DNA from: Planctomycetota bacterium
Lineage (GTDB): Bacteria > Planctomycetota > Planctomycetia > Pirellulales > Pirellulaceae
Assembly (NCBI GenBank): GCA_017303505.1
Contig: JAFLCP010000011.1
Location: 1 to 64,000 of the forward strand
Reading direction: 5' to 3'
DNA length: 64,000 nucleotides
The notes under the pieces were generated by a model. The model ran no database searches and had not been told where the DNA came from. It worked only from the letters and a program-made list of their open reading frames with translations. How positions within the stretch are numbered: position 1 is the stretch's first letter; every line of letters starts with the position of its first letter. The translations under genes and the position numbers were made by a program. Shown here piece by piece: positions 3,056-39,248 of this stretch.

Positions 3056-3108
3056 ACCAAATGATGTTTTGCCAAACGCGAAATCAACGCAACTCACTAT
3101 CTCTATTC

Positions 3109-4053
3109 ATGACGAAAACTATGAATCACCGCGCGGCTTTTGGTTTATTGTGCCTGACGTTCGCAGTTGCCGTTTCGCTTGATCCTGCTTATGGTCAAGC
3201 TCAAGAATTAGTCAAAAACTCAACACTTCCTCGTGGATTGGGGCTTGCTGCCGAGTATGTGCACGACGCACAGATCCAGCAACATCCCGCTGTGATTTTC
3301 GCAGACGATTTTGAGACAGGGGAAATCGCCAAACGCTGGGATGAACAAAACAACAAAGAGGGAAAGCCTCTTAGCTTCAGCGATTGTTCTGCAGATGGAG
3401 CCCCGACAGGAAAGCGATCTCTAAAGGTCACAGCAGATCTTGAGCAAAATCAGGGAGGTGGACTTACACGGTGGTTCGAGTCTGCCGACAAACTCTTCAT
3501 TCGCTTTTACACCAAGTTTGATGAAGACTGCCACTACGTTCATCATTTCTGTACCCTCAGAGCGAATCGAGCCTTGAGTGGCGGGGATCGTTGGAGCGGT
3601 TTTGGGGGCGCTGGCGCGCTACCCGATGGACAACGTCGTTTTTCTACCGCAATCGAGCCCTGGGGCAATTGGGGAGAATTTACGCCACCTGGAAAATGGA
3701 ATTTTTACAGCTATTGGCATGAAATGAAACCGAGCCCTGATAAAAAATACTGGGGTAATAGTTTCTTACCGGAGTCGCAAGCCAACATTGAAAGAGGACG
3801 TTGGCATTGCGTGGAATTCATGCTTCAACACAACACACCTTCTCAACCTGACGGTGAACAAGCCTTCTGGATCGATGGTGAACTTCAAGGCCATTGGAAA
3901 GGCTACAATTGGCGCACGGACGCCAAACTGAAAGCGAATGCCTTCACTCTCGAAAGCTACGTCACCAATCGTTGGACTAAGCAACGAGTCAATATCGTTT
4001 ACTTCGACAACGTAGTAATTGCTAAAGAATATATTGGTCCAGCTGGAAGATGA
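3109..4053 (+). CDS. Secreted concanavalin A-like beta-sandwich protein (possible polysaccharide lyase or binding protein)
   Basis: I place the start at ATG 3109, because translation from there begins MTKTMNHR followed by a signal peptide (AAFGLLCLTFAVAVSLDPAYGQAQ region); ATG 3121 is an alternative. The reading frame itself extends up to GTG 3046, overlapping the DUF1501 stop. The mature protein of about 290 residues has aromatic-rich beta-strand motifs (FADDFETGE, GKWNFYSYWHEM, GRWHCVEF, FWIDGEL, VYFDNVVI) typical of ConA-like jelly-roll lyases and carbohydrate-binding domains. I cannot assign a catalytic family. The next gene, convergent 17 bp away, is a pectate lyase-like enzyme, which supports a polysaccharide context. 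Confidence 0.6.
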   Translation: MTKTMNHRAAFGLLCLTFAVAVSLDPAYGQAQELVKNSTLPRGLGLAAEYVHDAQIQQHPAVIFADDFETGEIAKRWDEQNNKEGKPLSFSDCSADGAPTGKRSLKVTADLEQNQGGGLTRWFESADKLFIRFYTKFDEDCHYVHHFCTLRANRALSGGDRWSGFGGAGALPDGQRRFSTAIEPWGNWGEFTPPGKWNFYSYWHEMKPSPDKKYWGNSFLPESQANIERGRWHCVEFMLQHNTPSQPDGEQAFWIDGELQGHWKGYNWRTDAKLKANAFTLESYVTNRWTKQRVNIVYFDNVVIAKEYIGPAGR

Positions 4054-4070
4054 TGGGAAAGTGGAGAACG

Positions 4071-5573
4071 TTAACTTTGCTTTTCCCTTTTCCTAATAGC
4101 TGCCACCTGGATGAAATCCGAAAGTAAATTAACGTTCTTCACGAACTCGGCACTCGACACATAAACCTCGCCCAACTTGAACTTTGGCGAGCCCATCAGC
4201 TTCTCCCCCGCATACTGATGACTCCAAATTCCATCGCTATCGATTGCTTCTATAACGTCTTTTACAACTTCTTCTGACGGTCCATTTACTTTTGGCTTGT
4301 AAATCTGGCCTTGAACTACGGAATTGTAGCGATTCTCGATGGCATCGATTCGAGATGCGGCTTTCCAACCGTAGTGGGTCGGTACATTGGAATCATCGTA
4401 TGTCAATTGATATTGCCGATCCATATACAACGGTTTGTTGGATTTCAATTCATAGAATCTCGCCAGACGTCCATCTGCCAACGTACACTTGTTGCGGAAA
4501 TACTCGATACACCTCGGAACCGGCTCCATGTAGTGCATTTCCATGGTAATCTCGGCGATCCGAATCAATGTAAACATCGCGTCTTGCGACTCAACGCTTG
4601 CAATAGCGGGAGGTTCAAATTTGCGGGCCCAGATCGGTTGCATATTGTCATTGTATTGTTGGCACCATGCAGGTTGTGGCTCCGGCATTTGAGCCGCCAA
4701 AACAAAGTCACCCAATCTCTTAAGAGCCACAAGGAATTTTTCATCGGAATACACTTCCAGGGCCAAGATCAAAACTTCAGCGACATCACCCACCAGGCCG
4801 TCATTCAACGTCGGGTAGTCCCAATAATTTTTGACTTTTCCTTCACTCTTCCAGTCGTACTCAGGATAGCGTGCCAAAACTCGTTTGATGGATCGCGACG
4901 GTCCACGCCAACCTTGCGGAAATCCACCATTGGAAAACTGTGCCTTCAATAAAGCGTCTAGTGCAAACAAAGTGCATTCATGGATCGCCACATTCTCAAA
5001 TTCAAGAGCCTTATCCAGCTCTATCAAAAATAGCAACGCAGCTTGCGTTTGGTTATCGTCTAGGGAAGATTGGTTCCACTCACCACCGCTCCGTTTTCGA
5101 TAATCCCCCATTCGTCCTTGCTCTGGCTTTTCGAAATAGATCACTTGTGCCCATCCTCCTGACTTCAGTTGACCTTGCACAAGTGCATCTCCAATTTCCG
5201 TCGCCCAGGTGAGAAACTCTTCATCACCTGTCGCTTTATAGGCTTGAAGAAATGCGGTTCCAATCGAAGGAGTGCCAGGCGGTTGAACGATGGCGGCATC
5301 GATCAAGCGTTCATTTTCGCCCCACTGCGAGGTTCCATCTTTTGTGCTGAAGTAAGGATAGCCACCACGTTCTGAGACATGTTCACGGAAAAAACGGCAG
5401 GCGTCTTTTAGGGTTTTTATTGCCTCTTCTTCCAGCTTAGCACTTTGCTCGGTGGTAGTACGAATCTTCTCCTGAGCGATACATGGCTCATTGGTAGAAC
5501 TGAAATACGCAGCCAGCACGGCGCCGCAAATGCTAATCCGCCAGAAGAAAAACTTTGCTTTGAGCCGCAACAT
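4071..5573 (-). CDS. PL10-type pectate lyase
   Basis: A 500-residue exported enzyme with an N-terminal hydrophobic signal (ICGAVLAAYFSS) and the alpha/alpha-toroid motifs of polysaccharide lyase family 10: RGGYPYFS, SLDDNQTQAALLFLIELD around residue 180, FSNGGFPQGW around 220, and PAWCQQYNDNMQPIWARKFEPPA near 310-335. PL10 enzymes cleave polygalacturonate by beta-elimination with calcium. Most secreted PL10 proteins are about 350-500 residues, so this is full length. It converges on the beta-sandwich protein gene and is divergent from a sodium/solute symporter, consistent with a pectin- or uronate-use block. Family assignment is firm; substrate is inferred. Confidence 0.85.
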   Translation of the reverse strand: MLRLKAKFFFWRISICGAVLAAYFSSTNEPCIAQEKIRTTTEQSAKLEEEAIKTLKDACRFFREHVSERGGYPYFSTKDGTSQWGENERLIDAAIVQPPGTPSIGTAFLQAYKATGDEEFLTWATEIGDALVQGQLKSGGWAQVIYFEKPEQGRMGDYRKRSGGEWNQSSLDDNQTQAALLFLIELDKALEFENVAIHECTLFALDALLKAQFSNGGFPQGWRGPSRSIKRVLARYPEYDWKSEGKVKNYWDYPTLNDGLVGDVAEVLILALEVYSDEKFLVALKRLGDFVLAAQMPEPQPAWCQQYNDNMQPIWARKFEPPAIASVESQDAMFTLIRIAEITMEMHYMEPVPRCIEYFRNKCTLADGRLARFYELKSNKPLYMDRQYQLTYDDSNVPTHYGWKAASRIDAIENRYNSVVQGQIYKPKVNGPSEEVVKDVIEAIDSDGIWSHQYAGEKLMGSPKFKLGEVYVSSAEFVKNVNLLSDFIQVAAIRKREKQS

Positions 5574-5810
5574 TTCTGACTCCCATCATCGGGTTGTGTT
5601 TACAACGCCCGCGACAAACCAAAAACAAATGCAAATTTGAAAGCTCGATCCTACGAGAGTCATTGTATCAACCCCATTTTGCATCGTCTTCCAAACTTCT
5701 TCTTGCAATACACCTTTGTTCCATTATTCTTACAAAACAAATTCGGCTTACTTTCGGATTAGTGCAAAACCGGACGGTTCAGCCAGCAACTTGACTTGCT
5801 TCTCTTGGTA

Positions 5811-5814
5811 GGAG
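5811..5814 (+). promoter_or_regulatory. Shine-Dalgarno site that decides an ATT start
   Basis: GGAG (within TAGGAG) lies 9 nt before ATT 5824. In-frame stops TAG 5809-5811 and TGA 5818-5820 sit just upstream, so the symporter must start at or after 5821. No ATG, GTG or TTG occurs between 5821 and 5880, and the SD spacing points to ATT 5824. Confidence 0.55.
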
Positions 5815-5823
5815 TCGTGACCT

Positions 5824-7458
5824 ATTAACGCGCTCAGTATCCTCGACTATCTGGTCATCATCGCCTACCTCGTTGTTACGGTGGTACTGGGCTATCTGAT
5901 CGGTCGTCGTATCAAAACGGGTTCCGATTTTTTTCTGGCAGGTCGCCAGCTTCCCTGGTGGGCAGTCGGAATGTCGTTGGTCGCCACCGATATTGGCGGT
6001 ACGGATATTATTGGCGTCGGCGGCGCAGCTTACAAACATGGCCTGGCAGTTGCCAATTTTGAGTGGATTGGCTGTATACCGGCAATGATCATCGGCGCTT
6101 TCTTCTTCGTCCCATTTCTGTATCGCACTGGCATCTACACCATCCCTGAATACCTCGAACGTCGCTACAACCTCTCGGTGCGCACCATTATGGCCACTTG
6201 CTGGTTGGTCTTTATGGCCTGCAACATCGGCATCATGCTTTTAGCTTCAGCCAAAATGATGCAAAGCCTGTTCGGCTGGGAAATGTGGTTCTCGATCCTG
6301 TTGATGGCAACGTTAGTCGGTTTCTACACCAGCTTCGGCGGATTGGCGGCAGTTGTTTACACCGACGTTTTGCAATGTGTTATTCTTATCGGCGGTTGCC
6401 TTTTGTTGGTCGTCTTTGGTTTATGGCAGCTCGGCGGTATCGGCGAATTTAGAACGAAATTGCAAAATCGTTTTCAAGCCGAACAGATGGAAGATGTAAC
6501 TGCCAACGCTCTAGGTTCCGAATCATCCGAAGTAAATCGCCAGTCAACGTCGAGCAATAAAAAACCTGACCCGCATTTGGAACTCATCTTGCCAGTCGAC
6601 ACGCCGACACCTTTTCCCTGGCCAGGCATCTTGATGGGCCTCGCGCTAATTTTAAGTCCCGCTTATTGGATTGGAAACCAAGCGATCATTCAGCGATCTT
6701 TGGGCTCCAAAAGCGAGTTTGAAGCCAAAGCCTCTTATGTCTGGGGAGCGCTGCTTAAGAACGTTATTCCTATCGTGATTGCTGTTCCTGGACTCATCGC
6801 CATCGCACTCTTCCCCGATATCCAAGATGGCGATCAAGCAATCCCGACCCTAGTCACTCGTATCTTACCTTCCGGTGTTCGTGGTATCTTCTTCGCTGCA
6901 TTTTTAGCCGCGATGATGTCCAGCGTGGATTCGTATCTGAATAGTGCGGCCACTATTGTGTCCTACGATTTCATCCAACGCTTTTCGCGCGCGCCACTCT
7001 CTGAATCCCGCATTCTGAATCTCGGCCGCATTACGACCATTGCCGGCGTCACTTGGGGAGTTGGCTTTGCATTCTTGTTAACTCTCCTGAAAGAGGGCTC
7101 AGGAATCTATGCCATTTTCCAAACACTAATGGCATTCTTTCAAGGTCCTGCCCTTGCCATTTTGCTGACAGGAATGTTATGGCGAAAAGCTCATGGCAGA
7201 GCAGCGGTGGTTGCTTTGGTGCTGGGCATCATTACATCCATCTCACTGTATGCCCTGAATCAACCTGCGATTTATTCTTCACTAGGCTGGAAACCTCTCT
7301 TCCAAATTCAAGAACCTTTCCTCTATTTTTCGATTTGGTCGTTCCTGGTTTCACTGACAACACTGGTGGCTCTGAGTGTCACGCTAAAGTCCGCCGACAC
7401 TTCAAAGTCAGAACTGGTCATTTGGAATACTGCCAGAAAAGTGAATCACATTCAATAA
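5824..7458 (+). CDS. Sodium/solute symporter (SSF family)
   Basis: A multi-pass (about 13-helix) transporter with SSF landmarks: DYLVIIAYLVVTVVLGYLIGRR as helix 1, then DFFLAGRQLPWW, IGGTDIIGVGGAAYKHG and IPEYLERRYN. Family members couple sodium to uptake of sugars, carboxylates or amino acids. Starting at GTG 5881 would cut helix 1 in half; extending to ATT 5824 gives MNALSILDYLVII, the N-terminus expected of the family, with an SD (GGAG) 9 nt upstream. ATT is a rare start codon; a sequencing error for ATG is the alternative. A hydrophilic insert at about residues 205-260 is Ser/Asn/Asp rich. Divergent from the pectate lyase, so uptake of oligogalacturonide or uronate products is a reasonable guess. 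Confidence 0.85.
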   Translation: MNALSILDYLVIIAYLVVTVVLGYLIGRRIKTGSDFFLAGRQLPWWAVGMSLVATDIGGTDIIGVGGAAYKHGLAVANFEWIGCIPAMIIGAFFFVPFLYRTGIYTIPEYLERRYNLSVRTIMATCWLVFMACNIGIMLLASAKMMQSLFGWEMWFSILLMATLVGFYTSFGGLAAVVYTDVLQCVILIGGCLLLVVFGLWQLGGIGEFRTKLQNRFQAEQMEDVTANALGSESSEVNRQSTSSNKKPDPHLELILPVDTPTPFPWPGILMGLALILSPAYWIGNQAIIQRSLGSKSEFEAKASYVWGALLKNVIPIVIAVPGLIAIALFPDIQDGDQAIPTLVTRILPSGVRGIFFAAFLAAMMSSVDSYLNSAATIVSYDFIQRFSRAPLSESRILNLGRITTIAGVTWGVGFAFLLTLLKEGSGIYAIFQTLMAFFQGPALAILLTGMLWRKAHGRAAVVALVLGIITSISLYALNQPAIYSSLGWKPLFQIQEPFLYFSIWSFLVSLTTLVALSVTLKSADTSKSELVIWNTARKVNHIQ

Positions 7459-14919: not shown

Positions 14920-16617
14920 CTAGATGTGCTTTTTCGCAGAGAGAGGATGGCCCGATAGAGACCGATGCTGCTCTAGGCCTATAACTTGCAACTCTTTACC
15001 ACACTGCTTCGCTTCGTTTGTGGTTAGATGGAGTTTCTCCATAACTGTGTGGTCAACAAAACGCGTCTTCGAGAAGTCTAATGTGACCAAATCATAGGTT
15101 TGGAAATTTGTCTGAATCACTTGATTGAGCCCAAGCCAGTTCGAGAAGATTGCTGCATCATTTACGATGAGCAGAACTTTTTTGTCGCTTTGGGCAATCC
15201 CTTCAACATCTGCTTTGAAGAAACTCTTGAGCTGCACACCATTCCATAAGTGAAATCCGATCTTCGTCGCGATGCCAATTCCAACGCCAATTAATAAGTC
15301 TGTGGCTAGGGTAGCAATGATGGTTACAACAAAGACGACCAGCTGCTCGCTTCCAAGTTTATAAATCCGCAAAAACTCGTAGGGATTCGCTAAACGAAAA
15401 CCAGTGTATACCAACATCGCTCCTAGAGCGGCCAATGGAATTCTATGAATAAGCGATGGCAGGAGAAGCACAAAGGCTAAGAGAAAAAGGCCGTGAAACA
15501 TATTGGCGTTTCTCGTCCGTCCACCACTGTCCAAATTGGCTTTGCTGCGGACGATCTCAGCGATCATGGGTAATCCGCCAATGAGAGACGATAACAGATT
15601 TGCAACACCTAAGGCGGCAAGCTCACGGTTGTAATTCGTCTTTCTTCGCCATGGATCTAGCAGTTCAATCGCTCTGGCACTAAGCAACGACTCTAAGCTC
15701 CCGACCAAACTAAATAGGATGATGTATTGAAGTCCGGTCTTGGTAGCTACCGCGCGAAAATCAGGAAAAGCGAAAGCTTGCGACGCATCTTGCAACACGT
15801 AGGGAATGTTGACCAAAAACGTCGGCCCAAGTTCAAAGCCAGAATTGGAACCTAACCAAGCGAAATCGAATGGCAGCTTGTATTGGTGCCATTGATTGAG
15901 ATCCATAAAGATGCCCATGCACAACGAGACGACCAACACGATGAATTGTGCGGGAATCGCTTTGAGTCGATCACCTCGCAAAAGCGGAAAACAGAACAAG
16001 ATCACCAAGCTGACAATTCCGATGAGTGCTATTGCTGGATTCATATGCCCAAGTGCATGTGGCAATTCGCTTAATAGCTCAAGTGGCTCAGCACCTTTCT
16101 TCGCTGCGACGCCAATCATTTCATAGGATTGTTTAGCAATAATGATCAGGCCAATCGCAGCCAACATGCCATGGACGGGAGTGAGCGGAAAAAAATCTAC
16201 CCATTTACCAACGCGCAGTAGGCCAAACAAGATCTGGATGATTGCGGCGCAAACGCCAACTCCAAGTGCCAGCTTATAACCAAGGTACAGTTTATCTGCT
16301 TCACTTAAGCCTTGACCAAATTCAGCACCCAAATCGGTTACGGCACCCAGCACGATCACAATCATTCCCGCTGCAGGGCCCTTGATCGTAAGTTCCGAGT
16401 TCCCCAAAAGCGTACAAATTACGCCGCCGATCACAGCCGTCCAAATGCCAGCGATGGGAGGAAAACCACTGGCTCGCGAAATCGCAAGACAAAGTGGCAA
16501 AGCAATCATGAATACAAGTAAGCCCGCAATAACGTCATTGCGTAAGCTCTTGGCTCGTGTTGGAACGTTGCGATCTGTTGTCGGTGATTCAGACATACTT
16601 GCCGTCTTTTTTCCCAT
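14920..16617 (-). CDS. SulP-family anion transporter with STAS domain (copy 1)
   Basis: A 565-residue transporter: a SulP/SLC26-type membrane domain (about residues 20-440) with the motifs LCLAISRASGFPPIAGIWTA, GPAAGMIVIVLG, FFPLTPVHGMLAAIGLIII and GGLPMIAEIVRSKANLDSGG, then a cytoplasmic STAS domain (about 450-555; LVTLDFSKTRFVDHTVMEKLH). SulP proteins move sulfate, bicarbonate or other anions; BicA-type members bring bicarbonate with sodium. It is a close paralogue of copy 2 (17087-18802), with near-identical membrane motifs. Start is ATG 16617 or ATG 16596 (MSESPTTD), the latter matching copy 2 better. The DabAB neighbourhood makes bicarbonate a good candidate substrate (inference). Confidence 0.88.
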   Translation of the reverse strand: MGKKTASMSESPTTDRNVPTRAKSLRNDVIAGLLVFMIALPLCLAISRASGFPPIAGIWTAVIGGVICTLLGNSELTIKGPAAGMIVIVLGAVTDLGAEFGQGLSEADKLYLGYKLALGVGVCAAIIQILFGLLRVGKWVDFFPLTPVHGMLAAIGLIIIAKQSYEMIGVAAKKGAEPLELLSELPHALGHMNPAIALIGIVSLVILFCFPLLRGDRLKAIPAQFIVLVVSLCMGIFMDLNQWHQYKLPFDFAWLGSNSGFELGPTFLVNIPYVLQDASQAFAFPDFRAVATKTGLQYIILFSLVGSLESLLSARAIELLDPWRRKTNYNRELAALGVANLLSSLIGGLPMIAEIVRSKANLDSGGRTRNANMFHGLFLLAFVLLLPSLIHRIPLAALGAMLVYTGFRLANPYEFLRIYKLGSEQLVVFVVTIIATLATDLLIGVGIGIATKIGFHLWNGVQLKSFFKADVEGIAQSDKKVLLIVNDAAIFSNWLGLNQVIQTNFQTYDLVTLDFSKTRFVDHTVMEKLHLTTNEAKQCGKELQVIGLEQHRSLSGHPLSAKKHI

Positions 16618-16922
16618 GGCAATAGCAAAACAACTAAAGAGATGTTGCTTTTTTTATCCATAGCGGCAAGAAAATTAAGATTACAATTGCGTAATTCGGG
16701 TTATAGCTAAGGATAGTAATGGACCGGAGAATACAAGCCCGCGTGCAGAAGATAGACTACGCGGCAGAAACGGCCCGTCTAATGACAGTTCTCTAGCTAT
16801 ATCCTTACTTCTATCACGATTTTACCGATTGCATCAATTCTCACGAATCTTTTGGTTTCTCCTTGATACGATCATTTCACTGAAACGCAAGCTTGAACGC
16901 ACAGAGGACCATGCGTTCAAGC
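16618..16922. other. Intergenic region between the small peptide gene and SulP copy 1
   Basis: About 300 bp with the hairpin 16889-16924 at its upstream end (minus strand). I searched for a second GCAA-N5-GTGCCA (minus-strand sigma-54 site) here and found none, so SulP copy 1 is either read through from the copy 2 promoter or has another promoter type. A TTGTAA...TATGGA pair on the minus strand (around 16660-16700) is a weak sigma-70-like candidate. Confidence 0.35.
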
Positions 16923-16924
16923 TT
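16889..16924 (-). terminator. 13-bp perfect hairpin after the small peptide gene
   Basis: AAGCTTGAACGCA (16889-16901) pairs perfectly with TGCGTTCAAGCTT (16912-16924) around a 10-nt loop. It overlaps the stop of the 41-residue peptide gene. The U-tract is weak, so it could be a terminator or a processing/stability element between the peptide and SulP copy 1. Confidence 0.5.
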
Positions 16925-17048
16925 AAAGCCGCCACCAGAGAACAGTGGGCAGGATAAAATCTCTCAACAAAATGGCAATCCCAATGACCAGGATAAGGAT
17001 TAGCAATCCTGAAATGTTTTTCTTGCCTGATAGTTGCGTGCTGCTCAT
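16923..17048 (-). CDS. 41-residue single-helix membrane peptide between two SulP genes
   Basis: Read directly from the minus strand: ATG at 17048, stop TAA at 16923-16925, with AGGG 6 nt before the ATG. The product starts MSSTQLSGKKNISG, has one membrane helix (LLILILVIGIAILL, about residues 15-28) and ends RDFILPTVLWWRL, a short amphipathic Trp-rich tail. It is 38 bp after the SulP copy 2 stop, so probably cotranscribed. Size and topology resemble small accessory subunits that stabilise or regulate transporters. I do not recognise the family; that it is a gene is inferred from start, SD, composition and position. Confidence 0.5.
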   Translation of the reverse strand: MSSTQLSGKKNISGLLILILVIGIAILLRDFILPTVLWWRL

Positions 17049-17086
17049 TGAACACCCTTTACTTAAGACGCTTTCATCCACGCAGA

Positions 17087-18802
17087 CTAAGAATTTCCGC
17101 TAACAATTTGAGTTCCATGTCCCTTCTTTGCAGAAAGAGGGTGACTAGATAAGGAGCGATGGCTTTCAAGACCAACGACCTTGAGTTCTTTTCCGGCCCG
17201 TTTGGCTTCATCGATGGCTTGGTGAAGCTTCTCCATCACGGTGTGATCGACCAATCGAGTTCGCGACAAATCCAACATCACAGAATCGTAGTGTTTGAAA
17301 TTTTCCTGAATGACTTGGCTTAATCCCAGCCAGTTTGAAAACACTGCGGCATGATTAACGATGAGCAACATATGCTGTTCATCTTGTGCAACGCCCTGGA
17401 CATCGGCCCGAAAAACATTCTGAATCGGAACGCCGTTCCACAAATGAAAAGCAAGTTTCGTGGCGATTCCAATTCCGACCCCAATCAATAGGTCGGTTGC
17501 CAGCGTGGCAACAATCGTCACAACAAACACAACAAACTGTTCGCTGCCAACTTTGAATACACGCACAAATTCATTTGGATTTGCAAGTCGGAAGCCGGTG
17601 TAAACCAACATCGCTCCCAGAGCGGCCAATGGAATCTTGTGGATTAATCCGGGCACCAATAAAACGAACGCCAGCAGGAATAAACCATGAAACAGGTTAG
17701 CGTTGCGAGTGCGTCCACCACTATCAACATTCGCCTTACTGCGGACAATTTCGGCAATCATTGGAAGACCACCGATCAACGATGCAAGCAGGTTAGCAAA
17801 GCCGACCGCTAACAATTCGCGGTTGTAATTGGTTTTGCGTTTCCAAGGGTCCAACAGTTCTATCGCACGTGCACTCAGGAGTGATTCGAGGCTTCCCACC
17901 AAACTGAATAGAATGATGTACTTGATTCCCGTCTGTGTCGTGATGCCACGAAAGTCGGGAAAAGCAAAGGCTTTGGAAGCGTCTTTTAGAACGTGGGGAA
18001 TATCGACTAGAAATCGAGGACCAAGTTCAAATTCGGTGTTAGCCGTTGCACCAGGAAACTGAAATGGCAAGCGATATTTGTGCCAATGATCTAGGTCCAT
18101 GAACAATCCCATGCACAACGCAACAACCAGCACGATGAATTGTGCAGGAACCGCTTTTAACTTATTTCCGCGAATGTAAGGAAAAGTAAAGAGGATGATC
18201 AAACTGATAACGCCAATCAATGCGATGCCAGGATTCATTTGTGTGAGAGCGTGCGGGAAATCCCTCAGAAGCTCCAGTGGCTCGGCCCCCTTGGTTGCAG
18301 AAACGCCGATGACCTCATAGGACTGCTTGGCGATAATGATCAAACCGATCGCGGCTAACATGCCATGAACCGGTGTTAATGGAAAGAAATCAACCCATTT
18401 GCCAACACGAAACAGTCCGAAGAGAATTTGAACGCCCGCGGCAACAACGCCGACCCCCAATGCAAGTTTGTATCCGAGCATCAACTTTTCAGTATCGCTC
18501 AAGCCTTGCCCGAATTGTCCCCCAAGGTCTGTTACCGCTCCTAACACGATCACGATCATCCCAGCGGCTGGACCTTTGATCGTTAGTTCCGAATTACCGA
18601 GCAAGGTACAGATGATACCGCCAATGACTGCCGTCCAAATTCCGGCAATCGGCGGAAAGCCGCTGGCACGAGCAATCGCCAAGCATAAAGGTAAGGCGAT
18701 TAGAAACACCAGAAACCCTGAAATCACATCGCTGCGCACACTCGACATACGAGTTGGTGCTACCTGTTCACTTGCCGAAGCTGGCGAGTTGCTTTCACTC
18801 AT
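17087..18802 (-). CDS. SulP-family anion transporter with STAS domain (copy 2)
   Basis: A 571-residue SulP/STAS protein, very similar throughout to copy 1 (shared motifs FPPIAGIWTAVIGG, LTPVHGMLAAIGLIIIAKQSYE, GGLPMIAEIVRSKAN; STAS segment DLSRTRLVDHTVMEKLH). ATG 18802 has a strong SD (GGAGGG, about 6 nt spacing). A consensus sigma-54 promoter lies about 33 nt upstream, directly after the NtrC-type regulator gene, so expression is probably under that regulator. Substrate could be bicarbonate, sulfate or another anion; co-location with DabA/DabB favours bicarbonate. The Ser/Thr normally phosphorylated in some STAS domains cannot be assigned with confidence. Confidence 0.88.
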   Translation of the reverse strand: MSESNSPASASEQVAPTRMSSVRSDVISGFLVFLIALPLCLAIARASGFPPIAGIWTAVIGGIICTLLGNSELTIKGPAAGMIVIVLGAVTDLGGQFGQGLSDTEKLMLGYKLALGVGVVAAGVQILFGLFRVGKWVDFFPLTPVHGMLAAIGLIIIAKQSYEVIGVSATKGAEPLELLRDFPHALTQMNPGIALIGVISLIILFTFPYIRGNKLKAVPAQFIVLVVALCMGLFMDLDHWHKYRLPFQFPGATANTEFELGPRFLVDIPHVLKDASKAFAFPDFRGITTQTGIKYIILFSLVGSLESLLSARAIELLDPWKRKTNYNRELLAVGFANLLASLIGGLPMIAEIVRSKANVDSGGRTRNANLFHGLFLLAFVLLVPGLIHKIPLAALGAMLVYTGFRLANPNEFVRVFKVGSEQFVVFVVTIVATLATDLLIGVGIGIATKLAFHLWNGVPIQNVFRADVQGVAQDEQHMLLIVNHAAVFSNWLGLSQVIQENFKHYDSVMLDLSRTRLVDHTVMEKLHQAIDEAKRAGKELKVVGLESHRSLSSHPLSAKKGHGTQIVSGNS

Positions 18803-18834
18803 TTTCTACCCTCCAAGATTGAAGAGCAGTTAAC

Positions 18835-18849
18835 GCAACTCCTGTGCCA
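18835..18849 (-). promoter_or_regulatory. Sigma-54 (-24/-12) promoter for SulP copy 2
   Basis: On the minus strand the sequence is TGGCAC AGGAG TTGC, an exact match to the TGGCAC-N5-TTGC core consensus with correct spacing. Predicted transcript start is about 18824, leaving a 5' UTR of about 20 nt with the SD GGAGGG. It lies between the stop of an NtrC-class activator gene and SulP copy 2. Confidence 0.8.
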
Positions 18850-18891
18850 TTGAAAAAAGAGGGCGTTTCCTCAGAAAATGGATACTACCGA

Positions 18892-18905
18892 CTCAAGCAA
18901 TTGAG
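18892..18905. promoter_or_regulatory. Inverted repeat upstream of the sigma-54 promoter (possible activator site)
   Basis: CTCAA-GCAA-TTGAG is a perfect inverted repeat about 43 bp upstream of the -24 element. A second, overlapping pair TGAGCA-N5-TGCTCA (18902-18918) covers the end of the regulator gene. Either could be an enhancer-type binding site or a weak terminator of the regulator gene. Confidence 0.3.
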
Positions 18906-18908
18906 CAT

Positions 18909-20360
18909 TTACTGCTCATCCTGGCCATCATCTGCCCAGACCGTCTTTTCAATCTGAAGCCCTAAGTTGCGAAGCTTGTGTCGCAAGCTCGTGCGAGTGA
19001 TTCCAAGTATTTTCGCCGCTTTGACACGATTCCCCTCAACATGATTCAGAACTCGCGTAATGACGTATTTCTCAATCAAGTCGATCGCTTCTTGATGAAG
19101 GTTCTCACTCCCTTCAACAAGTCGATCGGTCACAAATTGCTCCCAAGCGAATACGGCTTCTTTTCCTGGTTCTGGACTAGTGTTTTCGCGATCTGCACCG
19201 ACATGACTGGGGAGGAAATCAGGCAGTAAAACACTCCCATTCATCTTGAGAATCGCTTGCTTCAAAACACTCTGCAATTCGCGCACGTTTCCGGGCCAGC
19301 GATAGTTCGTTAAGCGTTCGAAGGCCCCATCCGTCACCTGAACGTCGCGTTTTCCCAATTCTTTCCCGATTTTGGCTCGATAATACTCAACCAACGTGGC
19401 TATGTCGTCACCTCGGTCTCGCAGCGGCGGGAGCATAATCGTGAATACATTCAAGCGATAAAAAAGGTCCCGCCTGAACTTGCCTGCCTGCACAAGTCGG
19501 TCAAGATTTGCATTGGTAGCTGCAATAATTCGCACATCGGTCGTTACGACTTCGCTCCCACCGACTCTTTGAAACGTTTGATCCTGTAGCAATCGTAATA
19601 TTTTGGCTTGCGTGGACAGAGGCATGTCACCAATCTCGTCTAAGAAGATTGTCCCGCCGTCACATTGCTCGAATTTTCCGATCCGCTGTTTATCCGCGCC
19701 AGTAAATGCCCCTTTTTCATTACCAAAAAGCTCACTTTCCAACAAATCTTCTGGTATCGCAGCGCAGTTAATCGCCAAGAAGGGTTTCTGGTTTCGCTGA
19801 CTGTGTTGATAAATGGCCCGAGCGACTAGCTCTTTACCCGTTCCACTTTCACCCAGCACCAGGACGGTCACGTTTTGACAAGCTACGCGTCCAATCGACT
19901 TGTATACTTCCTGCATAGCATTGCAACGACCATGCAGAATGTCGCCTTCCGTGGTGGAACTTGTTTCATCACCGAGCAAAGTTGGGGTCCGCATCAGACG
20001 GCTTGACTCCACGGCCTGCCGCACAATCCGGCGTAGCTCTTGAAGTTCCAACGGCTTCAACAGGTACTCGAATACCCCAAGCTTCATTGCCTCAATCGCC
20101 AATTCGCTCGTACCATGTCCGGTGATAAGGATCACCGGAACCCTTGAGTCAATCCGCTTCAAATCCTCAAAAAGAGTCAAGCCTTTCGAATCTGGCAGAT
20201 GAAAATCAAGCAAAACCACATCGGGGCGATTCGTCGTGAATTCTTTCAGGCCTTCTGCGGCGGTTGTTGCCGTTCGAACCCTCAAATCAGCATCCCTAAA
20301 GGCTTTTTGGAATGCGTGCCGAATAGAAGCTTCATCATCAATCAACAACAAATCAGCCAT
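18909..20360 (-). CDS. NtrC-class sigma-54-dependent response regulator
   Basis: Domains in order: receiver (about 1-120; LLLIDDEAS, phospho-acceptor Asp52, Lys of LLKPLEL), sigma-54 AAA+ domain (about 140-375; Walker A GESGTGKE, GAFTGA loop, Walker B FLDEIGDMP), and a Fis-type helix-turn-helix (about 430-475; NRVKAAKILGITRTSLRHKL). GAFTGA shows it can contact sigma-54. I chose ATG 20360 (MADLLLIDDE), which has AGGTGG about 6 nt upstream; GTG 20369 adds three residues. It begins within 15 bp of the sensor kinase stop, so the two form one operon. A consensus sigma-54 promoter directly downstream drives SulP copy 2, the probable target. Confidence 0.92.
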   Translation of the reverse strand: MADLLLIDDEASIRHAFQKAFRDADLRVRTATTAAEGLKEFTTNRPDVVLLDFHLPDSKGLTLFEDLKRIDSRVPVILITGHGTSELAIEAMKLGVFEYLLKPLELQELRRIVRQAVESSRLMRTPTLLGDETSSTTEGDILHGRCNAMQEVYKSIGRVACQNVTVLVLGESGTGKELVARAIYQHSQRNQKPFLAINCAAIPEDLLESELFGNEKGAFTGADKQRIGKFEQCDGGTIFLDEIGDMPLSTQAKILRLLQDQTFQRVGGSEVVTTDVRIIAATNANLDRLVQAGKFRRDLFYRLNVFTIMLPPLRDRGDDIATLVEYYRAKIGKELGKRDVQVTDGAFERLTNYRWPGNVRELQSVLKQAILKMNGSVLLPDFLPSHVGADRENTSPEPGKEAVFAWEQFVTDRLVEGSENLHQEAIDLIEKYVITRVLNHVEGNRVKAAKILGITRTSLRHKLRNLGLQIEKTVWADDGQDEQ

Positions 20361-20374
20361 CCGTACCACCTACT

Positions 20375-21802
20375 TCACTTGCCCAAAGGTAACCAGATAG
20401 TAAATGTTGCTCCACCGCCTGGCGTGTGCTGAGCACTGATGGCACCATTATGTTCCTCAATAATTCTGCGACAAATAACCAGTCCTAAACCGACCCCGGT
20501 ATCCTTGCTGCTACTGAAGGCTTGAAAAAGATTGGATAGTGCTTCATCGCTAAAGCCTACTCCATTATCGATGACATCGATTCGAACGCCACCACCGGCT
20601 AATTGGGTTCGCAGCGTCAGACTTCCACCATTAGGCATCGCATCCAATGCATTGATTGCCAAATTCACAAGTACCTGCTGCAATTGAGCCTTATCTACGA
20701 CAAATTCAATGTCACCGTTTAAGGTATCCACAGTCACCATGACGCGTTGACGTTTTGCTCTTCCCCCAATCAAATCCAGGGTGCAATCGAGCACATCGTT
20801 GAGCTCTACCAACCTTCGTTCAGGTTTGGGCAAGCGCGCAAACGCAAGGAATGTTTGTAGTGAGCGTTCCATCCGCCGCACTTCCGATTCAATGATCTTT
20901 AAGTCATTTCGGCTCAAAATCCCATCTTCCTCTAAGCCCGTTTGGACCAGCATTTTCACTGACGTGAGTGGGTTGCGAAGTTCATGTCCCACCCCAGCAG
21001 CCAGCTTTCCCAATGATGCGAGTTGTTCGGAACGAACCATTTGCGTTTCACGATGGTGTAGTTGACCGATTATGGCCACAATTCGTTCGTCGAGATCTTC
21101 TAACGCTTCGTGAAGACCGCTGAATCCCTCGTTTTCTTGCACCGCCACTTCGGGAGTTTCTGGCGACAATTTGCCAGCCACATCGTGAATTTGAATGCGC
21201 AGTTTGTGGATCGAACGAGTCAATAGTCGAGCGACTGTATATCCAAACATCAACCCCGCTATCCCACCTAGAATACTGACCATTGCAACGCCCCAAGCCA
21301 ATTGGCTTAGAACTCTCTCGTGCGCAGAAGTAACAGTTTCTATTTGTTGGTCATTGTAGGCTTCAATTTCGCGAACCGGCAACAGAACATTGGTCTGCAA
21401 GAATTTGATCGTACTTACTAACTCCTCATTCTTCACCGCTTCAGAGGTTGAGGTCGCCTTCTCCCATAAGCTCAAATACTGCGCAAAACCATCGACAATA
21501 ATCTGCACCAGTCGCTGCTCTTCCGCATGATCCGCATATTTTTGTATCGCCGAAATCTGCATGAGCGCTTTTGAATGAAGCTCAGCAACACCCTCAACTT
21601 GATTCGTTTCGAGGGCAACTAGCGTATTGAGCGTGCCACGAAAATCAGCAGCCGCAGCTCGGCTAGAGACGTTCTCGCGCAGCACCCGCGTGATCCGCGC
21701 TTGCTCAAACAGCAACCCCACCGCAGTATAGACCGTCAATCCTGTCAACAGGACGCCCGCGACCAACACCGGGTAAAGGTAGCGGATTCCAATGATCTTC
21801 AT
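20375..21802 (-). CDS. Membrane sensor histidine kinase
   Basis: A 475-residue kinase: TM1 about 10-32, an extracytoplasmic helical domain of about 135 residues (33-168; four-helix-bundle character), TM2 about 168-192, a linker, then HisKA with His273 in GHELRNPLTSV, and a HATPase_c domain (N box NALDAMPNGG, G1 DNGVGFS, G2 GVGLGLVICRRI). This is the NtrB-like partner of the downstream NtrC-class regulator. The stimulus is not evident; flanking DabAB and SulP genes suggest inorganic carbon, pH or an anion (inference). Confidence 0.9.
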   Translation of the reverse strand: MKIIGIRYLYPVLVAGVLLTGLTVYTAVGLLFEQARITRVLRENVSSRAAAADFRGTLNTLVALETNQVEGVAELHSKALMQISAIQKYADHAEEQRLVQIIVDGFAQYLSLWEKATSTSEAVKNEELVSTIKFLQTNVLLPVREIEAYNDQQIETVTSAHERVLSQLAWGVAMVSILGGIAGLMFGYTVARLLTRSIHKLRIQIHDVAGKLSPETPEVAVQENEGFSGLHEALEDLDERIVAIIGQLHHRETQMVRSEQLASLGKLAAGVGHELRNPLTSVKMLVQTGLEEDGILSRNDLKIIESEVRRMERSLQTFLAFARLPKPERRLVELNDVLDCTLDLIGGRAKRQRVMVTVDTLNGDIEFVVDKAQLQQVLVNLAINALDAMPNGGSLTLRTQLAGGGVRIDVIDNGVGFSDEALSNLFQAFSSSKDTGVGLGLVICRRIIEEHNGAISAQHTPGGGATFTIWLPLGK

Positions 21803-21818: not shown

Positions 21819-21844
21819 CAGCCGCTTCATACTTGAAGCGGCTG
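21819..21844. terminator. 11-bp hairpin between dabA and the sensor kinase gene
   Basis: CAGCCGCTTCA (21819-21829) pairs perfectly with TGAAGCGGCTG (21834-21844) around a 4-nt loop. It is about 90 bp after the dabA stop and 17 bp before the kinase start on the minus strand. No clear U-tract follows, so it may be a terminator or a partial attenuator setting the ratio between dabBA and the two-component system. Confidence 0.5.
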
Positions 21845-21932
21845 CACTTGCTTACAAAATCTTTAATCAGGTCTCATACGATGTTTCCATCATCACCTAA
21901 ACTCCTCTGCGAATCTTGCGCCAAAACAATCC

Positions 21933-24461
21933 TTAATTCTTTGCAAGCTTCAGCCATCGACCTTCAGGTTCTCTTTCCAAGAGTCCTGAATTCCCCCAAC
22001 AAGTCAAGTGTATCCAACCATTGCGAACAAGATTCTGCACGATGGGATGCTTTTCAATCACCCGATCGATCGCTTCCGGTTTTGCATACAGGAAAACCGA
22101 CAAGCGTAGCGGTTCATGTTGGAACTTCTCCCCATCGTGCACAGACTGCCAAGGGAGTCCTGTTTTCAGGTCGCCACCATTACCTTCTACAACTCCCACA
22201 CCACCCATCACACTGTGCAGCACTTTGTTCCCGCTTCCAAATGATTTGGGATCAACGGTTGAGAAGTAGTATTGAGTATTAATCCAGTGAGCAACCACCA
22301 CCGGTGCGGTCAGGATCAATTCCAGGATGGTCCCCTCTTCATCAGTGGCTGGATCATAGCTATGCAAAAAGACTCGTCCATCAAGAGTTAGCCCCTTGGT
22401 CAAATCGCGTGGAGCCGCAATAAACGCTGCGTTGTTGACCAGTCCCCACTCAGGTCGCACCTCAGACCAATCCAGCGCCCGTCGGTAAACACTATCTTGC
22501 GCATTACTGCCAAAGCGATTGTTTCGTTCAACCTGAGCGCGATGCGTTGCTTGCGGTAATGCCTTTCGAAGTACAGCCAACTCCTCCTTAGCAGCTGACG
22601 AAATCCCATCTTCTTCAAAAAACGAGATCTCGTCTGTTGTGGTGTTGTGCAACGCAGCCATAAACCAACATTCTTCAGCGATGTCGATCCCATCTTGGCG
22701 AAGCACTTTTCTTACTTCTGGATCATTGAGCAATTGGGCTGCCATTCGAGCGTTGCTTTCTCCGGAATGACCGCCACATGCACCGCAATCCAAACTGGCT
22801 TGGAATGGATTATTTGTAGATTGGCTACCATGTCCCACAAAAACAACTAGAGTTCCCAGGCGTTTCTTGAGTCCCAGGTTATGCAAGATGCCTTTAGCCA
22901 AAGCAGCCCGCTCTGTTAACTCGATGTTCGCTTGCAGTCCCGAACTCTTTCGGATCAAGTTTGCCACCGTCTGGCCATCGTGAGTAAGCCGGTCCTTCTT
23001 CCAACGCCATGACCGAACCGAAGGTGAGAGTCGTTGTATGAGTTTGGGTAAGTACGTTAGACCAAGTGTCTCGACATAACCGAAGCAAGCCACAGCCGAC
23101 GAACCTAATTGCTCGATGAGAGAACGGACAGCAACAGGTTTCTTACAGGGCTGGCTAGCGTGGCAATCACACCCTGTACCTGAACTCGTTTCATGAACAT
23201 GAAACTTTGGACTTAAGAGCACAGGTAATTGATTCACCGATCCATCATTCTCAGCAGAATGAAGTTGGAACGGGAGGCCAAAGAACCCTGCGAAACCAAG
23301 AGTTTCCACCTCTGGCGAAACCCATTCAATTTGTCTTCGCAACACTTCAGATCGAACGTCAATACAAAAGACCATTTGTGTTGCACTCGCAGTTCGCTTA
23401 ACAACTGCTTCTGGTCTTTCATGAGGCAAGGCTAGGCTTAGATTCTGGCGATAACGTGCTTCGCAAGCAACTAGGCCTGCGAACCTTGCCAAATCCGTTA
23501 CTAGTCGCTCCCTTGTCTCAGTATCTTTTTCTTGACTCTCCGAATGGGTCGGCCACAGCTTGAAACTTTCACGATCTGGATACACTCGAGCCAAACATGC
23601 ATCGTACGCCAGCCGAACTGCCAACAATCCGACAAGTTCATCGTCGTCCAAATCCGCGATAGATTTCCCGAATTGTAAACCTTGGATATATGAGGCCCAA
23701 CCTACGACTGAATTCCACTGTGCGAGCAGAAATCCTCGCCAATGTTTTTGTGGAACTTCGAACCATCGCAAAAGTGCGACAATACAATCGACGGGTGATT
23801 CCGGGAGTTCGCCAATGGTCTGTCGAAAATCTCGAAGGCCAAGCCAGTCCATTCGGTAGTCGACTTGCTTGAGCGTCTGCCATGCGGAATATAGCCCACG
23901 ATTCTTATAGGGATGTTGCCAAGCTGTGTTCCCATCTGCATACAGTGAACCGCAGTGCCGAGAAATCTCCTCAACAATTACATTCTCCCAAGTTATCTCG
24001 CCAGAATAACTCACTTGCTCTGCAAAAGTTTGATACTCTTTCTGGTGTGTTACCTGCGAGTCAGCCTTCGAGGCCAACACGGAGAGAATCTCTTCTTCCG
24101 AAACAGAGTAAGCTTCAAGCAAGACTTCGAAGCGCTCGCGAACTTGCGAACACGCTTGGACAATATCCGCCTTCGACAACGTCCCTTGTGTCAGATGCTT
24201 TCGATAATGTTCGATGGGCATCAACAGCTCCGCATCCCGCACGCTTTGCACTTCTCGCATCGCTTGTAGCAGGTTCATGTCGTTGTAACCATGCAGTGGA
24301 TTCACCGCCACAAAGTCGCGCAATGGCCACTGTGGAGCTAGGCGAGCAATCAGCTTGGGCAGCAAATCCAATGCCTGTTGGCGCTCGTTCAATGAAACCA
24401 TGGGAAGGTCAAATTTGTTCTTCACAGTTTTTTCCGAGCTGGTGATGAATGAATTAGACAT
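21933..24461 (-). CDS. dabA: DabA, carbonic-anhydrase-like subunit of the DAB inorganic-carbon complex (DUF2309/UPF0753)
   Basis: An 842-residue protein of the DUF2309 family. DabA in Halothiobacillus binds zinc through a carbonic-anhydrase-like Cys-Asp-His-Cys set and, with DabB, converts CO2 to bicarbonate inside the cell, driven by the ion gradient. The equivalents are visible: Cys366 and Asp368 in FCIDVRSE, His544 in VGHGSQ, Cys559 in DCGACGG; the 15-residue His-to-Cys spacing matches the family. The N-terminus has LPKLIARLAPQWPLRDFVAVNPLHGY, also diagnostic. It overlaps dabB by 8 bp, so translation is coupled. The active-site set looks intact. Confidence 0.93.
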   Translation of the reverse strand: MSNSFITSSEKTVKNKFDLPMVSLNERQQALDLLPKLIARLAPQWPLRDFVAVNPLHGYNDMNLLQAMREVQSVRDAELLMPIEHYRKHLTQGTLSKADIVQACSQVRERFEVLLEAYSVSEEEILSVLASKADSQVTHQKEYQTFAEQVSYSGEITWENVIVEEISRHCGSLYADGNTAWQHPYKNRGLYSAWQTLKQVDYRMDWLGLRDFRQTIGELPESPVDCIVALLRWFEVPQKHWRGFLLAQWNSVVGWASYIQGLQFGKSIADLDDDELVGLLAVRLAYDACLARVYPDRESFKLWPTHSESQEKDTETRERLVTDLARFAGLVACEARYRQNLSLALPHERPEAVVKRTASATQMVFCIDVRSEVLRRQIEWVSPEVETLGFAGFFGLPFQLHSAENDGSVNQLPVLLSPKFHVHETSSGTGCDCHASQPCKKPVAVRSLIEQLGSSAVACFGYVETLGLTYLPKLIQRLSPSVRSWRWKKDRLTHDGQTVANLIRKSSGLQANIELTERAALAKGILHNLGLKKRLGTLVVFVGHGSQSTNNPFQASLDCGACGGHSGESNARMAAQLLNDPEVRKVLRQDGIDIAEECWFMAALHNTTTDEISFFEEDGISSAAKEELAVLRKALPQATHRAQVERNNRFGSNAQDSVYRRALDWSEVRPEWGLVNNAAFIAAPRDLTKGLTLDGRVFLHSYDPATDEEGTILELILTAPVVVAHWINTQYYFSTVDPKSFGSGNKVLHSVMGGVGVVEGNGGDLKTGLPWQSVHDGEKFQHEPLRLSVFLYAKPEAIDRVIEKHPIVQNLVRNGWIHLTCWGNSGLLEREPEGRWLKLAKN

Positions 24462-26067
24462 TGCTTTCCTTTCCGCTGATCAAGGCTGGGCCCAGGTAAT
24501 TTTGCTTGGCTTTGAAGAGTGCCACAAAACGATGCGCAATCAAGTCGAGATACAATTCGTTAGCCATGTGTGCATAGAGTCTTCTCGTAAACGGATGCTT
24601 TGGGGCTTGCTCAACCAGGACTTGAATCCCCCAGAGAGCAAAGAATGTCGTCGCCACATACGCTAGGTTGAACCATTGCCAAACCGTCATGCCATCCGTC
24701 GAATGAGGAACTGAATCTCTCAAGTACCATTGTGCCATCAACGTGACGCCGAAGTAGATCGATCCCATACCGACCGCAAGAGCGGCTGTTCGGATTGGGC
24801 TTTGGTAGGCTTGCCACACTCGCAGTACAAGCGTTTGAACCGCCAGAGCAAAGACCATTACCAGGGGAAGTTTCGCGATTGAGAACCAGTCCAGGTAAAC
24901 ACACACGGAGAAGGGGATAACCATTCCCACCAGACTGCACAACAAGATGCTCGCCGCATACCCCACTCCGCTATTTGTCTGCTTTGTGGCGGCCTGCGGG
25001 GAGATCGCCGGCGAGCGTAGGGTTCCCGCACTGAGAAAGGCGTACGATTTGTAAAGCGAATGGGCGATGATATGGAGGAAAGCCGCCGAGAAAGCTCCCA
25101 ACCCACACTGCAACATCATCATTCCCATTTGAGCAATCGTCGAATACGCCAAGCTACGTTTCACATTGGTTTGCGTCAACATAATCGCCGCCCCGATGAC
25201 CGCCGTAAGACCACCCAATATGACAAGGATCGTCATGGCAACTGGAGCCATTTCCAAAAGTGGACTGACTCGTATCAGTAGATAACCTCCGGCGTTGATA
25301 ACACCCGCATGCATAAGGGCTGAAACGGGAGTAGGTGTTTCCATCGTGTCGGGCAGCCAAGTGTGGAACGGAAATTGCGCTGATTTCGTCAGACCACCCA
25401 AGACCAGAAGGATCGCCGCCCACGTTAGCTCTGGACGCTGCGATAGCTCAGCGGCTGAAACATCAATCATTCGAAACAACTCAGCGTAGTCCAGTGTTCC
25501 GCAGACTCGATAAATGAGAGCGATAGCGCCAATCAAGAAGGCATCGCCGAATCGACTGATGACAAACTTCTTAAAGGCCACTCTCTGTGCATTCGGACGA
25601 TCACCGTAGTGCGTTAGCAATTGATGTAAACCGAAACTGGTAAGAACCCAAGCGACGAAAAAGACCATCAAGTTAGCAGCCAGGACCATCGTACAAACGG
25701 CGGCGAGAGTGAAACTTAACCAGCGTACAAAACGCCCCTGCCTTTTCTCACCTTGAAGATAGCGGCCAGAATAAAGGAGCACTGCCAAACCGACAAAGCT
25801 CACCAGCAAGTACATCGTGAGCGATAAGCGATCACAGAAAATGGCAATGGAGATTCCATTCCAATGCACAGGTTCAAAGGCATGGGGCAGGAAGGGCTCG
25901 ATGAAACTCATGATGCAGCCCCATAATGCGCATACGAGGTTGGCGACCATCGCACCTCGAGCGACGGTCAGCATCGCTCCTACATTTCCGTTAGCGATAC
26001 GCGACGGAATCGCCGCTACCCCCCATTGCAACAGGACAGCCATAAAAACCGCCGGCTCGAACCCCAT
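24454..26067 (-). CDS. dabB: DabB, NuoL-like membrane subunit of the DAB complex
   Basis: A protein of about 537 residues with roughly 13-14 helices, related to the proton-translocating subunits NuoL/MrpA: motifs FVGLAVLLYSGRYL, AWVLTSFGLHQLLTHY, FPFHTWLPDTMETPTPVSALMHAGVINAGGYLL and TQTNVKRSLAYSTIAQMG. In DAB complexes this subunit is thought to couple cation flux to DabA. I place the start at ATG 26067, which has GGAGG 8 nt upstream; the frame extends to ATG 26118 without a good SD. It precedes and overlaps dabA. A winged-helix regulator is divergent from it. Confidence 0.9.
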   Translation of the reverse strand: MGFEPAVFMAVLLQWGVAAIPSRIANGNVGAMLTVARGAMVANLVCALWGCIMSFIEPFLPHAFEPVHWNGISIAIFCDRLSLTMYLLVSFVGLAVLLYSGRYLQGEKRQGRFVRWLSFTLAAVCTMVLAANLMVFFVAWVLTSFGLHQLLTHYGDRPNAQRVAFKKFVISRFGDAFLIGAIALIYRVCGTLDYAELFRMIDVSAAELSQRPELTWAAILLVLGGLTKSAQFPFHTWLPDTMETPTPVSALMHAGVINAGGYLLIRVSPLLEMAPVAMTILVILGGLTAVIGAAIMLTQTNVKRSLAYSTIAQMGMMMLQCGLGAFSAAFLHIIAHSLYKSYAFLSAGTLRSPAISPQAATKQTNSGVGYAASILLCSLVGMVIPFSVCVYLDWFSIAKLPLVMVFALAVQTLVLRVWQAYQSPIRTAALAVGMGSIYFGVTLMAQWYLRDSVPHSTDGMTVWQWFNLAYVATTFFALWGIQVLVEQAPKHPFTRRLYAHMANELYLDLIAHRFVALFKAKQNYLGPALISGKESNV

Positions 26068-26136
26068 GACGCCCCCCTCCACTGCCGTGACTTTGTTTGC
26101 CGAACACCTCAGTCGCATTCACACGAACGCCGTATC

Positions 26137-26344: not shown

Positions 26345-26782
26345 ATGGCAAACAAAAATGCAGGAAAAACGGACCCATCGACTGCGATCGACAAGAAAAA
26401 ACGGTCCTCCAGCGAATTAACCTCGCTCCCCACCGCCACCGTTGCAATTGCAACTCCTGGGACTGCAACGGAAGGGCTAGCCAGTGAATCAAGCACCAAA
26501 AAAACCGGCTGGACTTTCCTGACCAATCACTCCCATGTCATCATTCTGTTGGCCCGCCAACCTGATATGGTTCTGCGAGAGGTCGCTTCAGAAATCGGAA
26601 TCACCGAACGAGCCGTCCAACGAATTATTGCGGACTTAGAAGAAGATGGATTTCTGATCCGTGAAAAGATTGGCCGCCAAAACCACTACCGCGTCGTCCG
26701 TGACTTGCCTCTTCGCCACCCGATCGAAGGGCATAAATTCATTGGCGATCTTGTCGATCTTATCCTTTTGCGCAAGAAATAA
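26345..26782 (+). CDS. Winged helix-turn-helix regulator divergent from dabB
   Basis: A 145-residue protein. The first 55 residues are Ser/Thr/Ala rich and probably disordered. Residues about 57-125 form a MarR/ArsR-like winged helix: [20 protein letters not shown], then the helix-turn-helix [33 protein letters not shown] and wing QNHYRVV. ATG 26345 has TAGGA about 8 nt upstream. Divergent placement over dabBA with an operator-like pair between suggests it controls dabBA and itself (inference). No ligand domain is visible. Confidence 0.75.
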
Positions 26783-37818: not shown

Positions 37819-39248
37819 TTGTCTTCCAACTGATAATACTTCAACCTTTCCCTAAGTGTACCACGATGGATGCCAAGCAACTCTGCCGCCTTTACACGGT
37901 TCCCACTGCATTGGCTCATTGCAAAACGCAATAGTGTCGGTTCGACTCGATCCAAAAAAGCCTGCTGTAGCCCCTTCGCTCCAATCTCATCCGTCCCCAT
38001 TAAGTTTCGCAATAGATCTTCCAGAAGAGTGTTGAGATTCGCCTCAGGTACAGCCCCCTGATTGTCTCCCTCTTCTTCGGCAGGAAAATCGCTGATGACC
38101 AACGGTCTGCCTCGCGCTACAACCGCCGCATGTTCGATGGCGTTGCGAAGTTCGCGAATGTTTCCACGCCATGGTCTTTGCTGCAATAATTCTAACAGCT
38201 CCTTCCCCACGGCTGTCTCAGCGTTAGGGTATCCGATTGCAGTCAAAAAGTATTGGCAGAGCAACCCAACGTCTTCACCCCTTTCTCGTAGAGGTGGAAG
38301 TTGGATATGCAAACCATTGAGCCGATAGTACAAATCCTCACGGAAATTCCCAGCTCGCACCGCCTGTCGTAAATCGCGATTGGTGGCGGCCAATATGCGA
38401 ACATCACACCGCCGCGGTCGCACATCTCCTACTCGGAAAAAGTCGCCCTGTTCCAGCACACGCAACAATTTTGCTTGCGTCCCTAGCGGCAATTCACCAA
38501 TCTCATCAAGCAATACCGTGCCTCCCTCGGCTTTTTCGAAAAGCCCAATTTTGTCATCGGTCGCCCCCGTAAATGCCCCCTTCACATGTCCGAACAATTC
38601 ACTTTCGATCAAATCGGGATTAAGTGTCACAGGAGCAATCGGAAAATAGGGTTTGTCCTTTCGCAAACTGTGCTGATGAATGGCCATCGCCACAAGTTCT
38701 TTACCGGTTCCTGTCTCTCCTGTGATCAAAACGGATAAGTCGCTACCAGCCACCAAAGCAATTTGCCGAAACGCCGACTGAATCGCAATCGATCTCCCTA
38801 CCAATGTTGGCTTGAATGCCTCTGGTCTGCGTACCGCGACAAACGAACCTTTCGGACCATGACTGAGTACTTGTCGACACTTCGCTAAGACATCTTCGAG
38901 TTTGAAGGGCTTGGTGATGTAGTCTGCAGCGCCGCGCGCGACCGCGGTAACAGCGGTATCCAAATCACCAAAGGCGGTCATCACGATGACGGGAACATTG
39001 TTGGCCGTGGCACGAAATTTGGGTAATGCGGATAGCCCATCTTCCTTGGGCAAGCGAACGTCGAGAAAGACCAACGAAGGTTTTATACTGGCGGCAATTC
39101 TTAGCCCTTCTTCCGCAGACGATGCAGTAAAGGCTTGATAACCTTCACTCTTGAGCATTTTCTCAAACGCCCAACATATCGATGCTTCATCATCAACGAC
39201 GAGCACAGTCGGCTTGGGCTGATTCTCTTGACTTAGACCTTGCGACAT
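37815..39248 (-). CDS. NtrC-class sigma-54-dependent response regulator (second)
   Basis: About 477 residues from ATG 39248 ([10 protein letters not shown]); a longer frame to TTG 39293 overlaps the kinase gene. Domains: receiver (about 12-128; VLVVDDEAS, Asp63 in FLDVRLP, TKPF Lys), sigma-54 AAA+ (about 148-385; Walker [15 protein letters not shown], Walker [10 protein letters not shown]), Fis HTH at the C-terminus ([21 protein letters not shown]). Paired with the sensor kinase upstream. The nearest sigma-54 promoter is in front of the DUF1559 gene at 42009-42023, so that gene is the probable target (inference). Confidence 0.92.

Follow-up and report, generated by a model that had tools for sequence, protein, structure and literature searches.

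A predicted sigma-54 promoter and tandem operator probably tie a SulP transporter gene to its neighbouring kinase and NtrC-type regulator in a planctomycete

In the 64-kb stretch of planctomycete DNA analysed here (the window), a gene for a SulP-family anion transporter (SulP2) lies directly behind the genes of a histidine kinase and an NtrC-class response regulator, raising the question of whether the transporter is expressed from a sigma-54 promoter under the control of these neighbours. Based on the sequence, we estimate at roughly 0.85 the probability that a functional sigma-54 promoter drives SulP2 and is activated by the adjacent kinase and regulator through tandem palindromes; the binding, activation, substrate and signal in this model are ones that we infer. 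DUF1559 also points to a planctomycete source. The features concerned are listed in Table 1.

Table 1. Positions of the genes and predicted control elements in the window.
Feature	Positions	Strand	Details
DabB-like	24454..26118	-	
DabA	21933..24461	-	
Membrane histidine kinase	20375..21802	-	PF00512 HisKA, PF02518 HATPase_c
NtrC-class response regulator	18909..20369	-	Pfam PF00072, PF00158, PF25601, PF02954
Predicted operator, promoter-distal, TGGGCAGATGATGGCCA	18922..18938	-	centre ~-107; PWM rank 1/63,984
Predicted operator, promoter-proximal, TGAGCAGTAAATGCTCA	18902..18918	-	centre ~-87; PWM rank 5/63,984; contains regulator TAA stop
Predicted sigma-54 (-24/-12) promoter, TGGCACAGGAGTTGC	18835..18849	-	only exact window match; intergenic
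SulP2, SulP-family anion transporter, predicted target	17087..18802	-	PF00916, E=3.8e-62
SulP1, paralogue of SulP2 (77% identical)	14920..16617	-	possible read-through target

The genes are transcribed from the minus strand in the order DabB-like, DabA, kinase, regulator, SulP2 and SulP1, and their Pfam domains bear out the first-pass annotation of an NtrC-class regulator, a two-component system and SulP. The regulator combines Response_reg, Sigma54_activat and HTH_8 domains, with a receiver Asp, Walker A and B motifs, the sigma-54-contacting GAFTGA loop at 220 and a Fis-type HTH, and thus has the receiver, AAA+ and DNA-binding modules of an NtrC-class enhancer-binding protein. Its best NCBIfam matches (NtrC, AtoC and a PEP-CTERM regulator) all fall below their cut-offs, that to the NtrC model TIGR01818 reaching 480.5 bits against a cut-off of 558.6. 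The kinase contains the H-box GHELRNPL and two hydrophobic segments (residues 12-30 and 168-186) separated by about 137 residues, suggesting that its sensor is probably extracytoplasmic. SulP2 matches the Sulfate_transp domain with 210.7 bits (gathering threshold 23.2) and resembles the DauA, sulP and BicA models, each below cut-off (153.1 bits against 880 for the BicA model NF050096); the best SulP match by sequence in the PDB is 6ki1, which we take to be BicA.

We identified the candidate promoter, TGGCAC-AGGAG-TTGC (18849-18835; tttttcaaTGGCACAGGAGTTGCgttaactgctcttcaatcttGGAGGGtagaaaATG on the minus strand), within the 106 bp that separate the SulP2 ATG (18802) from the stop codon of the regulator (18909), correctly oriented and 47 bp upstream of the ATG, with a Shine-Dalgarno sequence, GGAGGG, in between. 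The core follows TGGCAC-N5-TTGC with GG and GC 10 bp apart and occurs once in the window, compared with 0.21 +/- 0.48 times in dinucleotide shuffles. The core, spacing, strand, placement and strong Shine-Dalgarno sequence initially proposed for this site are confirmed. The earlier description as an exact consensus holds for the core and fails for the extended consensus, YTGGCACGrNNNTTGCW, from which three flanking positions deviate (A before TGG, A after CAC and G after TTGC). Counting from the GC at -13/-12, the transcript is predicted to start at about 18823 (18824 in the first-pass annotation). The genome encodes a single copy of rpoN (PF04552, E=3.4e-60), with an intact RpoN box, ARRTITKYR.

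A match of this kind is weak evidence when taken alone. Exact matches number 26 in the whole genome, with 13 for the reversed pattern as a control, and some 16 of the 26 are located within ORFs, indicating that around half of such matches are false; the site at 18835-18849 is credible because of its position and the operator described below. It could be asked whether the element is there by chance, SulP2 sharing a transcript with the kinase and regulator that begins at a housekeeping promoter further upstream. The three genes share a strand, with gaps of only 6 bp (kinase to regulator) and 106 bp (regulator to SulP2), and the 13 reversed matches show how readily the motif arises; against this stand the position of the site, the operator pair and the recurrence of the arrangement in relatives, and a scan for sigma-70 sites returned no more than in shuffles. 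We thus consider a chance match very unlikely, although read-through could occur alongside the sigma-54 promoter.

The operator was found through palindromes spotted by eye in three loci (L136, L158 and the window), from which we derived the search pattern NGRACAGNNNCTGTYCN. Among 37 regions upstream of the kinase genes in other genomes, strong palindromes of this pattern occur 6 times, against 0.05 in shuffles, and are often tandem, 20-22 bp apart. A symmetric position weight matrix was built from ten sites, none of them from the window, although the copy at 18902 is one of the palindromes that prompted the search and is not fully independent, whereas that at 18922 is. The two 17-bp palindromes of the window, 20 bp apart and reaching from 53 to 89 bp ahead of the -24 element, score 25.7 as a pair at this spacing, compared with 11.4 for the next unrelated pair in the window, and none of 1000 column-permuted matrices reached 25.7 in the operator stretch. 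More broadly, kinase/regulator loci totalling 0.67 Mb, some of which gave training sites, yielded 10 operator pairs, against 0.8 in shuffles and 4 in 1.12 Mb of control loci.

As sequence, the pair has the form of an upstream activating sequence, and it falls within 18850-18960, the stretch that had been singled out for footprinting of the regulator. Its centres lie within the usual range for enhancer-binding proteins, and the operators overlap the stop codon and the poorly conserved C-terminal tail of the regulator. Outside the training set, the order of regulator end, operator pair, -24/-12-like site and target recurs in L133 and L166, and with a single operator in L165. The distance from operator to promoter varies from about 53 to 180 bp, and in L132 and L148 the operator pairs lie downstream of the nearest sigma-54-like site, contrary to the model. 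Two other approaches were discarded: GAGCA-N5-TGCTC alone as a regulon marker, which has 18 occurrences genome-wide, none of them close to another exact sigma-54 site, and de novo enumeration of palindromes without control for composition, which was swamped by GC-rich coding repeats. We additionally noted a nearly perfect operator copy, TGGACAGAATCTGTCCA, ahead of an RND efflux operon near a kinase/regulator pair of this family (L176, 13538-13554), and, in the window, GAGCAGTTAACGC (read on the opposite strand; 18822-18836, minus strand), which overlaps the -12 element and the start site, resembles the operator half GAGCAGTAAATGC and might act as a repressing site.

The sigma-54 promoter might also be real and the main activator of SulP2 another regulator, the neighbour providing one input only. 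The genome holds at least 14 matches to the regulator (E<=1e-60), one of them in the window at 37827-39206. Yet the operator in front of SulP2 matches that accompanying the closest homologues of the kinase and regulator, no second such pair exists in the window and the kinase/regulator genes recur next to SulP genes, making a different main activator quite unlikely.

This recurrence was found in several genomes, in which the same kinase/regulator family adjoins SulP genes (L117, L136, L158, L159, L172 and the near relatives L163 and L164), where rough arithmetic from about three SulP genes per genome predicts some 0.3 adjacencies by chance. In L136 (CGGCACGCCGGTTGC), L172 (TGGCGCAAGCTTTGC) and L159 (TGGCATGGGAGTTGC and TGGCATGCGCATTGC, one before each of two SulPs), an element with one mismatch precedes the SulP start by about 57-69 bp. 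No site within one mismatch was found for the SulP genes of L158 and L163/L164, and that of L117 has only a site with two. In total, 4 of 7 linked SulP loci have a -24/-12 element upstream, against none of 31 unlinked SulPs at up to one mismatch (one-sided P=5e-4); a general sigma-54 control of SulP genes was rejected on the same 0/31 count. The tie between transporter and two-component system put forward in the first-pass annotation thus gains support, at the level of sequence, from the recurring neighbourhood, the elements before linked SulPs and the tandem operator. The nearest counterpart of the window arrangement is L159, where two tandem SulPs (2468-6474), each preceded by TGGCAT-N5-TTGC, are divergent from the closest kinase homologue that we found.

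We further examined the surroundings of the regulator stop, from 60 bp upstream to 350 bp downstream, in 59 loci of the closest regulator homologues. In the sense direction these contain four exact sites and five with one mismatch, and none of either for the reversed motif. The genome rate predicts 0.039 exact sites, compared with three observed when the window is excluded (P ~1e-5), and 20 further loci, picked by kinase similarity, added four one-mismatch sites (control 0). This excess suggests that placing the activator directly before its sigma-54 target is a recurrent habit of the family, although 50 of the 59 regulators have no such site right after the gene. Separately, large surface-protein genes with a LEPLEAR/LESLETR-type motif lie downstream of family regulators in L032 and L041, with near-consensus sigma-54 sites in front.

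In the mechanism that we propose, the adjacent membrane kinase would phosphorylate the regulator, which would then bind the two palindromes (at ~-87 and ~-107), which overlap the 3' end of the regulator gene. Looping of the DNA would bring the GAFTGA loop to RNA polymerase-sigma54 at the promoter, and the regulator ATPase would open it for SulP2 transcription, so that an envelope-side signal would induce SulP2, most likely an importer of bicarbonate or a related anion. Domain order, GAFTGA loop, paired upstream sites and -24/-12 promoter are shared with NtrB/NtrC-type systems (NtrC, AtoC, ZraR), from which this locus differs in its predicted SulP target. The predicted operator, TGRRCAG-N3-MTGYYCA, also differs from the NtrC site, TGCACY-N5-GGTGCA.

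The DabA and DabB genes just upstream of the kinase raise the possibility that dabB-dabA-kinase-regulator-SulP2-SulP1 is a single sigma-54-controlled inorganic-carbon regulon. DabAB are inorganic carbon accumulation complexes (PF10070; PMC13144422). All these genes lie on one strand, both DAB and SulP are tied to inorganic carbon, and SulP homologues in relatives often flank a longer kind of DabA. However, a strong hairpin (21819-21845, -19.1 kcal/mol) parts dabA from the kinase, and neither dabB nor the kinase is preceded by an operator or a good -24/-12 site; a candidate at 21909-21923 upstream of the kinase (TGGCGCAAGATTCGC, two mismatches) was dropped as unsupported, with no operator nearby. 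At 40 other loci, DabA homologues are kept together with DabB and a divergently oriented MarR-like HTH gene as a conserved unit, and kinase or regulator genes of this family are represented only by stray weak matches, leading us to reject a conserved dabBA-kinase-regulator-SulP cluster; a DabA search of the genome contigs returned one distant locus only. These neighbourhoods suggest that the dab genes form one unit and the kinase-regulator-SulP genes another, the two adjoining here by chance, and the single regulon appears unlikely. Direct control of dabAB by the predicted circuit is not supported, the DabAB genes of the window belonging to the separate HTH-dabB-dabA unit with no sign of sigma-54 control. 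A MarR-like winged-helix gene (26345-26782, plus strand) is divergent from dabB and is a likely regulator of dabBA; most of the other loci examined have a counterpart next to dabBA, with about 50-70% identity.

Returning to the sigma-54 circuit of SulP2, the SulPs beside the family kinase/regulator in L172 and L163 carry a fused carbonic anhydrase (Pro_CA) domain. The window SulPs share the SulP fold with BicA and with these fusions and lack the carbonic anhydrase domain of the latter. Together with the dabAB genes upstream, the fusions point to bicarbonate as the likely substrate of SulP2, and bicarbonate or similar anions would, as far as sequence can suggest, be the theme of the targets. 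In L166 (4991-6260), a family regulator is separated from a bestrophin gene by operator sites and a -24/-12 site with one mismatch, and a UspA-like gene comes after the bestrophin gene; this bestrophin would be a second kind of anion-channel target. It is a tentative proposal, to which we give slightly less than even odds, that this planctomycete kinase/NtrC-type regulator family senses the status of inorganic carbon, pH or anions and switches on bicarbonate-handling membrane proteins, namely SulPs, SulP-carbonic anhydrase fusions and bestrophins from sigma-54 promoters via the tandem operator.

The type of mechanism is already known, and the operator and the wiring to SulP are apparently undescribed: in the limited library of open literature searched, we found no description of sigma-54/RpoN control of SulP or bicarbonate transporters, nor of this operator. 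If true, the proposal for the family would provide a sigma-54 route to bicarbonate uptake, unlike the LysR-type regulators of cyanobacteria, in a group in which sigma-54 regulation has hardly been studied. The present analysis develops an isolated promoter match into a regulatory circuit that is open to testing and has a defined operator, suggests that SulP transport, probably of bicarbonate, is under sigma-54 control, and offers an operator model for finding the regulon in related genomes.

Finally, for SulP1, we looked for a sigma-54 site of its own in 16618-17086 and found none, and direct control by the predicted circuit is not supported. SulP1 may be reached by read-through from SulP2, with a 41-codon ORF and a strong hairpin lying in between. 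The ORF (16923-17048, minus strand) encodes a one-helix membrane peptide, and the hairpin behind it (16891-16922, -21 kcal/mol), a perfect 14-bp stem without a clear T-run, could be a terminator, an attenuator or an mRNA stabiliser.
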